Assembly (NCBI GenBank): GCA_035517655.1
Contig: DATIYJ010000063.1
Coordinates: forward strand, 1 to 36,227
DNA from: Nitrospiria bacterium
Lineage (GTDB): Bacteria > Nitrospirota > Nitrospiria > JACQBZ01
Reading direction: 5' to 3'
DNA length: 36,227 nt
This document shows, piece after piece, positions 22,986 to 25,152 of this stretch. Position numbers and translations under genes: made by a program. The notes beneath the pieces were generated by a model, which ran no database searches, had not been told where the DNA came from, and saw nothing but the letters and a program-made list of their open reading frames with translations. How positions within the stretch are numbered: position 1 is the first letter of the stretch; the number at the start of each line of letters is the position of its first letter.

Positions 22986-23015
22986 TTGACATATCGTCGC
23001 CGAACCCTTTATATT
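22986..23015 (+). promoter_or_regulatory. promoter of the ABC-F gene and its leader RNA
   Basis: A consensus TTGACA (22986-22991) is followed by an 18-bp spacer and TATATT (23010-23015). The expected start is near 23022, giving a 5' leader of about 175 nt before the ATG at 23197. Confidence 0.7.
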
Positions 23016-23021
23016 AGTTAA

Positions 23022-23196
23022 TTTGAACGACAATTCTATGCGGTGGGTGGCGCAGGCGGGCGCCCCATCCGACCGCAACGCAAAAGCCAAGGGCTCTTTT
23101 GTGGGGTTCCCCTTATCAATTATCGGAGCATGCCAAGTGAGGACGGATGGGGCTGCCGAAGGACAGGACCCGCCAATGGAGCAGGATTAAACACGA
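23022..23196 (+). ncRNA. structured 5' leader RNA of the ABC-F gene, unknown class
   Basis: The leader folds on paper into a closed multi-branch structure. P1 pairs GGCGGG (23055-23060) with CCCGCC (23169-23174). P2 pairs the ten bases GCCCCATCCG (23062-23071) perfectly with CGGATGGGGC (23144-23153), 72 bases apart. P3 is a hairpin TGCC-GAA-GGaCA (23154-23165) between P2 and P1. Inside P2 lie AAAAGCC/GGCTcTTTT (23082-23100) and a G4/C4 hairpin (23103-23112). There is no U tract after it, so it is not a simple intrinsic attenuator. I do not recognise it as a known riboswitch. The boundaries are inferred from the promoter and start codon. Confidence 0.5.
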
Positions 23197-25152
23197 ATGA
23201 TATCCATTCAACAGATTTCAAAACGCTTCGGCGGACGCGTGCTTTTTAAAGACGCGTCGCTCCGGATCGGGATTGATGACCGCGTGGCGCTGGTCGGGCC
23301 GAACGGAGCCGGGAAAACGACGCTGATCGAGATGATCGCCGGCCGGGTCTCGCCCGACAGCGGAACGATCGCGATCAACAAAAAGGCCGTGATCGGCTAC
23401 CTGACGCAGGAGTTGGAGGCCCACCGGGGCAAAACCGTTCTGGAAGAAGTCCTGTCCGGCGGCGCCGACGTCTCCTCCATCGAACATCATCTGCGTCTTT
23501 TGGAAGAGGAGATCGCGACGGCCTCTCCCGAAGCGGCCGAGGAGCTGCTCCGGCACTACGGGGAACTCCAGTCAAAGTACGAGCATCTGGGCGGGTATTC
23601 GCTCGAGGCCCGCGCCCGGGAGATCCTGTTCGGACTCGGTTTCAAGGAAAAGCAGCTTTCACGCCCGATGGAGGAGCTCTCCGGAGGCTGGCGGATGCGG
23701 GCCGCCCTCGCGCGACTGCTCCTATCCGGACCGGACCTTCTGCTCTTGGATGAACCGACCAACCATCTCGATCTGGAGTCGGTCATCTGGCTGGAAGGGT
23801 TCCTGGCCGACTACGCCGGCGCGATCCTGCTGATCTCCCACGACCGGAATTTCATGAACCGGCTCGCGACCCGCGTGGTGGAAGTCGACCGGCAGCAGTT
23901 GATCTCGTATGCAGGCAATTACGACCAGTTTGTCGCGGCCAAGGCCCAGGCGCAGGAAATTCTCGATGCGACCGCCAAGAACCAGCAGAAAAAGATCGAC
24001 CAGACCCAGGCCTTCATCGATCGTTTCCGGTACCAGGCCACGAAGGCCCGGCAGGTCCAGAGCCGGATCAAGATGCTGGACAAGATGGACAAGGTCGATA
24101 CGGCCCCGGAGCAGAAACGCGTCCGGTTCTCGTTTCCCGATCCGCCCCGGAGCGGAGAATCGGTCATCCGCTTGATCGACCTCGACAAATCGTACGACGG
24201 GAACCCGATCTACCGCGGGTTGAACGTCGAACTGCGCCGCGGCGAGCGGATCGCCCTGGTCGGCCCGAACGGGGCGGGGAAATCCACCCTGCTCAAGCTC
24301 CTGGCCGGCGTTCTTCCCTTCGAAAAAGGCGAGCGCCGCCTGGGCCACAACGTCACCCTGGCTTACTACGCGCAGCATCAACTCGAACTTTTAAACCCGA
24401 AAAACACCGTCCTGGATGAAATCACCGGGGCCGCGCCGCTGGAAGAGCAGTCGTTTCTCCGCGCGATCCTCGGACGCTTCCTGTTTTCCGGCGACGACGC
24501 GAAGAAGAAAGTGGCCGTCCTCTCGGGCGGGGAGAAAAGCCGCCTGGCCCTGGCCAAGATGCTGATCCGCCCGGCCAATCTTCTCCTGATGGATGAGCCG
24601 ACCAACCATCTGGATATTCCTTCCCGGGACGTTCTGGAAGAGGCCCTCGGCGGTTATTCTGGGACGATCGGGTTCATCACGCACGACCGGCATTTCATCC
24701 GGTCCGTGGCCAACAAAATCATCGAGGTCCGGAACGGAGAGGTCACCTCCTACGGCGGGGACTACGATTACTATCTCTATAAGAAGAAGGCCGCGGCGGA
24801 AGGCCCGTTCCCGCCTTCCGCCGGAGGCGCACCGGCGGCGACCGCAGCGGTCCAAACGACCAAGGCGCGGAAGACCAAGGAGCAGAAACGGGCCGAGGCG
24901 GAAGCGAGAAATCGGTTGTACCGGGAGAAAAATCCGGTCAAGGAACGGCTGTCCCGGATCGAGTCGGAAATCGACGAGGCCGAGACGGTCTTCAAAAATC
25001 TCACGGCCTCGCTGGCCGATCCGGAATTATACCAGGATAAGAAACGGTTTTTTGAAACGGTGGACGCCCACGCGCGGGCGCAACGGCGGGTCGAAGAATT
25101 GACGGCCGAGTGGGAACAATTATCGGCCGCAACGGCCGAATCAACATCATAA
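23197..25152 (+). CDS. ABC-F family ATPase (ribosome-associated type)
   Basis: ABC-F proteins are soluble twin-ATPase factors that act on the ribosome E site (translation regulation, stalled-ribosome rescue or antibiotic protection), not transporters. The 651-aa product has domain 1 with Walker [12 protein letters not shown] (about 34-44), signature [14 protein letters not shown] (about 162) and Walker [13 protein letters not shown] (about 181-192). A charged linker of about 80 residues (240-320) follows. Domain 2 has [11 protein letters not shown] (about 356), [13 protein letters not shown] (about 443) and [12 protein letters not shown] (about 462). A C-terminal basic, then coiled-coil, tail (about 545-651) resembles Uup/YheS types. 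Preceded by a structured leader, its expression is probably controlled at RNA level. Confidence 0.93.

Follow-up and report, generated by a model that had tools for sequence, protein, structure and literature searches.

A Dispersed Hairpin Repeat of Nitrospirota and Methylomirabilota Probably Forms the Leader of an ABC-F ATPase Gene

Introduction

Is the structured region in front of an ABC-F ATPase gene of a Nitrospiria bacterium a regulatory RNA of this gene, or is it a part of something broader? The question is raised by a 175-nt leader located at 23022–23196 of the analyzed stretch of DNA (36,227 nt of contig DATIYJ010000063.1, hereafter the window; all features of it given below are on the + strand). 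A sequence-only reading of the window had described the region as an unclassified leader RNA that could sense translation stress or a ligand. In this work we compared the leader with related genomes. The best reading of the results is that it represents one copy of a new family of a known sort, a dispersed hairpin repeat comparable to REPINs or MITEs. Tempting as it is to see a drug-sensing leader in front of a resistance-like gene, this view gives way here to that of a broad family of repeats.

Results

Promoter and Leader of the ABC-F Gene

The gene itself (23197–25152) encodes an ABC-F ATPase of 651 aa, as supported by orthologue comparison. It is preceded by the promoter TTGACA-18 nt-TATATT (22986–23015), which agrees with the consensus at 11 of 12 positions. 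Because a matching -35/-10 pair was found upstream of the orthologous genes in five other genomes of the same bacterial family, this promoter, already recognized in the sequence-only reading, is very probably real. The hairpin element described below is expected to be part of the ABC-F mRNA as its leader. Two other statements of that reading also held: no U-tract terminator was found in the leader, and the leader is unclassified, since a search of Rfam 15 with gathering and loose thresholds gave matches at chance level only and none above the gathering cut-off.

The folding energy of the whole 175-nt leader was no better than that of shuffled sequences (z -0.71), and energy was therefore rejected as a proof of structure. 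It was sequence comparison, not energy, that revealed the structure.

Structure of the Element

The core of the element (type I, ~131 nt) occupies positions 23043–23173 and is the sole significant match in the window to the covariance models R1 (131.6 bits) and R2 (48 bits). It is closed by helix P1 (23043–23048 paired with 23168–23173), supported by covariation, with the sequence GUGGGU/ACCCGC in the window copy and GCGGGU/ACCCGC in the family. P1 is followed by an asymmetric internal loop GG/ACAGG, whose conserved ACAGG strand (23163–23167) lies directly 5' of the 3' side of P1, and then by helix A (23055–23058 paired with 23154–23157), a 5' bulge, helix P2 (23062–23071 paired with 23144–23153) and an apical arm (23079–23137). 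Helix A may have any sequence provided that it is paired: compensatory changes were revealed in several size classes, and in Nitrospira relatives it is different but still paired. P2 is also paired and mostly variable in sequence, while the apical arm, as comparison of copies revealed, is variable and occurs in several kinds and length classes.

P2 is the exact 10-bp pairing noticed earlier in the window, and it is conserved by compensatory change; when the leader was dinucleotide-shuffled 300 times, a perfect stem of at least 10 bp appeared in 6 cases (~2%). The 6-bp stem proposed to enclose it (23055–23060 with 23169–23174) is indeed complementary in its letters, but the closing stem of the family is P1. 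The third hairpin, which was thought to form a three-way junction, falls in the variable apical part and does not covary, so the junction was rejected as a conserved structure.

The core is flanked by two outer arms. The left one (23017–23042) is a decayed terminal inverted repeat, ACTAATACAAACGAC...TGACATC, recognized by comparison with loci L002, L023, L028 and L148. The right one (23174–23194) is a remnant of GATGGAACAGGATTAAAGTCGTTTGTATTAGT, as seen by comparison with L023, L054 and L002. It contains the motif AGGA (23183–23186), located 10 nt before the start codon, which is likely the ribosome-binding sequence of the gene and would in this case be supplied by the right arm of the repeat.

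Compensatory changes have preserved the fold, with covariation in both P1 and P2. We counted 25 two-sided compensated cells versus 7 in shuffled data in alignment A2, and 114 versus 42 in shuffled and 2–11 in slid data in alignment A3 (27 diverse copies aligned by MAFFT). In alignment A4 (64 copies), which was fitted to the covariance model and leans toward it, 270 such cells were found versus ~90 in shuffled and 12–21 in slid data, with two-sided change in 21 of 25 pairs and 94.9% paired. Type I alone gives slight covariation, because its frame hardly varies. Compensatory changes in helix A and P2 come from the copies of other types, and in Nitrospira-like copies helix A is wholly different yet paired (CAAUGAGC/GCUCAUUG, CGUCGGC/GCCGACG, CGCCGACC/GGUCGGCG), while P1 and GG/ACAGG are almost fixed. 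The hairpin frame of the family is thus strongly supported by comparison of the copies.

Copies, Types and Outer Repeats

The element proved to be multicopy and dispersed. Its 3' frame GGGCTGCCGNAGGACAGGACCCG, with no more than 3 mismatches, occurs 28 times in the genome of the window (G000, 2.65 Mb), which gives at least 28 copies there, and its reversed control does not occur at all. BLAST comparison of the leader with relatives gave at least 13 matching places in its own genome and additional ones in six genomes from this bacterial family. Over the relatives, 83 distinct places match the 3' frame with at most 5 substitutions, including two, L065 and L074+831, that are located inside predicted genes and are probably due to chance.

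The copies are alike in GCGGGTGGCCGNAGGCGGGGC...GGGGCTGCCGNAGGACAGGACCCGC and differ in between. Core lengths are ~132, 128, 103, 99 and 84 nt, and there is also a 41-nt form devoid of the central arm. Complete copies from this bacterial family and from one Methylomirabilota genome (G315, a MAG from groundwater) carry the outer inverted repeats ACTAATACAAACGAC / GTCGTTTGTATTAGT and are ~160–200 bp long; they are short, non-coding and dispersed and possess terminal inverted repeats, in the manner of MITEs. In one Methylomirabilota genome, near-identical copies occupy several unrelated places.

It should be noted that two contigs of G000 (C3 and C58, loci L056 and L156) break off within or near one of the copies, and faulty assembly may account for the short form at L056. 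As repeats break assemblies, the copy numbers obtained from draft genomes are lower bounds. The copy at L068 (857–1060) has a tandemly duplicated right end, GAGGACAGGACCCGCGCCTTTGCAACAAGATTAAAGAG, probably resulting from slippage.

Taxonomic Range

The search with model R1 extended the family to Nitrospira-like genomes (a label that we use for the f2/g4 genomes, with a presumed genus name). With model R2, when ten candidates per genome were scored, the family was revealed in at least 62 of 396 Nitrospirota genomes, belonging to at least 18 of 169 genera. It was also found in 21 of 95 genomes of Methylomirabilota, a count that takes in several weak or contig-edge matches by score (loci L236, L240 and L243 begin at a contig end). 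Carriage by phages or plasmids was rejected, since exact core patterns did not match viral contigs and blastn did not reveal the element in plasmids. A literature search, outside of which lay most subscription papers and preprints, returned no published description of the family.

The ABC-F Site in Related Genomes

Six close orthologues of the ABC-F gene share 86–100% amino-acid identity, and the promoter is common to all of them. The element is present in only two of the six leaders, that of G000 and that of G004, which belongs to another genus. It is missing in G001, G002, G003 and G005 despite the matching promoter, which contradicts the idea of a dedicated ABC-F leader. Since most close orthologues do without it, the element is not a dedicated switch of this gene. 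In G002, G003 and G005 the leaders are short and do not contain the left outer arm of the repeat. The leader of G001 bears a different insert in place of the element, apparently another repeat family that would have settled at the same spot. Within this insert (L129, 330 nt before the start codon, gene strand), the stretches AAAATTCCCC... and GGGGCGACGTGAGCCCC resemble stretches located inside or beside the copies L046 and L026.

The copies of G000 and G004 have the same truncated right end, ...GGATTAAACAC, and therefore go back to a single event, by descent or transfer. Their 3' frames are identical at 36 of 36 positions, whereas the third codon positions of the ABC-F gene are merely 60% identical between the two genomes. 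This is more than passive decay would leave and could mean that the frame has been kept by selection, gene conversion or transfer.

Location and Orientation of the Copies

According to a simple codon-usage gene finder, the copies are intergenic, and many of them directly follow a stop codon and have co-directional genes on either side. Their neighbours are functionally unrelated and share no theme: they encode ThiC, a dihydrolipoamide dehydrogenase-like protein, KsgA, TldD/PmbA, a RarA/MgsA-type ATPase, NuoF, ArgH, NuoL and Lgt and, in a second set, a HIT protein, DapF, a di-haem peroxidase, an ABC ATPase and a solute-binding protein. The occurrence of the same element at unrelated genes, at ~50 sites and in both sense and antisense orientation, does not support the suggested sensing of translation stress or a ligand.

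When orthologous sites were merged, 50 distinct sites remained in this bacterial family: 26 on the same strand as both neighbours (++), 9 opposite to both (--), 9 between divergent (-+) and 6 between convergent genes (+-). The sense bias (26 versus 9) has a p value of 0.006. Among the Nitrospira and Methylomirabilota copies the bias is reversed (27 -- versus 6 ++, with orthologous sites kept in). Such biases hint at constraints beyond mere insertion.

In the Nitrospira and Methylomirabilota copies (those outside this bacterial family), the window-sense strand shows 27 G-U against 5 A-C, a count weakened by the fact that the covariance-model search may favour G-U. As these copies are mostly antisense, the excess gives a weak hint that the folded form is one particular strand and not host mRNA.

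Exchange of the Middle Part and Palindromic Flanks

Comparison of orthologous sites revealed that the middle of the element can differ while the arms are the same: at L028/L052, the G001 copy is of type IV and the G000 copy of type I, and at the single site L012/L122/L070 types I, IV and the minimal form all occur. It looks as if the middle had been exchanged while the position stayed. A central arm type that differs per species at a constant position was observed at these two sites and at L025/L050/L119.

P1 is often extended by locus-specific pairing of the flanks: at least 6 bp of it was found in 15% of copies versus 1.1% of re-paired flanks, an excess that is overstated because orthologous sites and shared outer inverted repeats were included. 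In the alleles of one Nitrospira site that contain the element, it is preceded by the sequence ...CGAGAATGGTGA, almost an inverted copy of the end of the adjoining gene, and this arm is missing in those fetched relatives that lack the element there. This suggests, without proving it, that the palindromic arm arrives together with the insertion; the inverted gene-end copy would point to an unusual, fold-back-primed insertion. No target-site duplication was recognizable, and the palindromic ends obscure the boundary.

Genes of a possible mobilizing enzyme were looked for as well. Y1 transposases are encoded in G000, G001 and G004, with no copy of the element adjoining them, and the remaining element loci contain no Y1 relatives. 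RAYT neighbours were therefore rejected. A parent insertion sequence with the same inverted repeat was not found either: the inverted-repeat motif was matched at 19 fetched places, of which 18 adjoin a core of the element, and in the locus of the exception, L158, there is no second end to match. The REP tags GTAG, GGAG and CGTC are not enriched in the flanks.

Discussion

We consider it quite probable that the ABC-F leader goes back to the old insertion of a dispersed repeat that is non-autonomous, hairpin-shaped and a member of a new family. Its likeliest mode of spread would be that proposed for REPINs, mobilization in trans by an enzyme encoded elsewhere that recognizes the folded single strand. 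In the lineage of the window, a copy is located between the conserved promoter and the start codon of the ABC-F gene, so that its RNA copy makes up the present 5' leader, and its right arm probably provides the ribosome-binding sequence. If ABC-F expression is affected at all, the effect would be incidental, exerted on translation by a stable hairpin that precedes the start codon. Against insertion stand the failure to find an autonomous partner or a clear target-site duplication, the 36/36 identity of the frame at the ABC-F site and the orientation biases.

The sequence of the helices is largely free, while P1, GG/ACAGG, the bulge and the apical motifs are fixed, a pattern as expected for a site read by a protein on a single strand. 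Tentatively, the family could represent an undescribed class of structured nucleic acids common to the two phyla and read single-stranded, as ssDNA or as its own RNA, by a dedicated protein.

A specific form of the insertion explanation, a REPIN family driven by a RAYT that was missed or is non-adjacent, seems doubtful. REPINs are hairpins with conserved ends, a variable spacer and compensatory changes that are probably moved by RAYT (PMC3116915). The element is similar to the REPIN/REP-RAYT systems (PMC3116915, PMC2817692, PMC6006769) in its size and in being a non-coding, multicopy, extragenic hairpin with these same features and with suggested mobilization in trans as ssDNA. Nearly every copy has an invariant GTGG beside helix A on its top strand, which recalls the GT(A/G)G head of REPs, and Y1 transposases are present in three of the genomes. 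However, according to the published description two inverted REPs always flank a RAYT gene (PMC2817692), which is not the case here, the tags are not enriched, and the nearly invariant GTGG stands at the 5' end alone, the other end being GTCC on its own strand. Furthermore, the conserved internal loop GG/ACAGG and the bulge belong to the element, and its hosts are Nitrospirota and Methylomirabilota. With unflanked Y1 genes and a one-ended head, the family is therefore to be called REPIN- or MITE-like, and its membership in the RAYT system is not supported.

Bacterial MITEs, including ERIC and Correia (PMC10969869), are similarly short, non-coding, intergenic, transcribed with their neighbours and strongly folded, and in the bacterial family of the window the element also has outer inverted repeats. 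In contrast to MITEs, these repeats are common only to that bacterial family and the Methylomirabilota copies of one genome, while the Nitrospira flanks are locus-specific. Moreover, neither target-site duplication nor parent insertion sequence was seen, and the two phyla share a conserved core structure. BOX elements are likewise intergenic and combine conserved end modules with an exchangeable middle. No kinship in sequence or structure was seen between our element and pneumococcal BOX elements (PMC3049150), and its middle is one apical arm of several alternative kinds and not a set of tandem modules.

It is unlikely that the element is a functional RNA of host transcripts, maintained by selection at numerous genes and disseminated through recombination, for instance an intercistronic or 3'-end hairpin that stabilizes, processes or separates mRNAs. 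Such a role would agree with the frequent position of copies just behind a stop codon within co-directional gene pairs, the orientation biases, the deep structural conservation and the preserved frame at the ABC-F site. However, the favoured orientation is opposite in the two groups, the sites are not kept across close relatives, and folding of host mRNA predicts the reverse of the G-U excess described above, although the latter argument is weak. A dedicated cis-regulatory leader (attenuator, riboswitch or antibiotic-responsive RNA) is highly improbable: the promoter is conserved and the element, with a perfectly conserved 3' frame, occupies the same site in two genera, but four of the six orthologous leaders do not have it, it occurs at unrelated genes in all orientations, and it has neither a terminator nor an Rfam family.

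The preferred explanation, an inserted dispersed repeat, adds a family outside Rfam 15 to the environmentally important Nitrospirota and Methylomirabilota, and its strong covariation provides a ready model for annotation. How it spreads can be tested by comparing genomes, since orthologous sites differ in its presence, the apical arm is exchanged at fixed sites and the flanks are palindromic.

Finally, unrelated-looking folded inserts were observed in different species at one Nitrospira site, in the intergenic stretch to the left of the query match (L248–L277). They include this element, the TTCGTTAAACGTTAAC type, the GAAGGGCGGTGGGC type and others, and the site is a hot spot for palindromic repeats.
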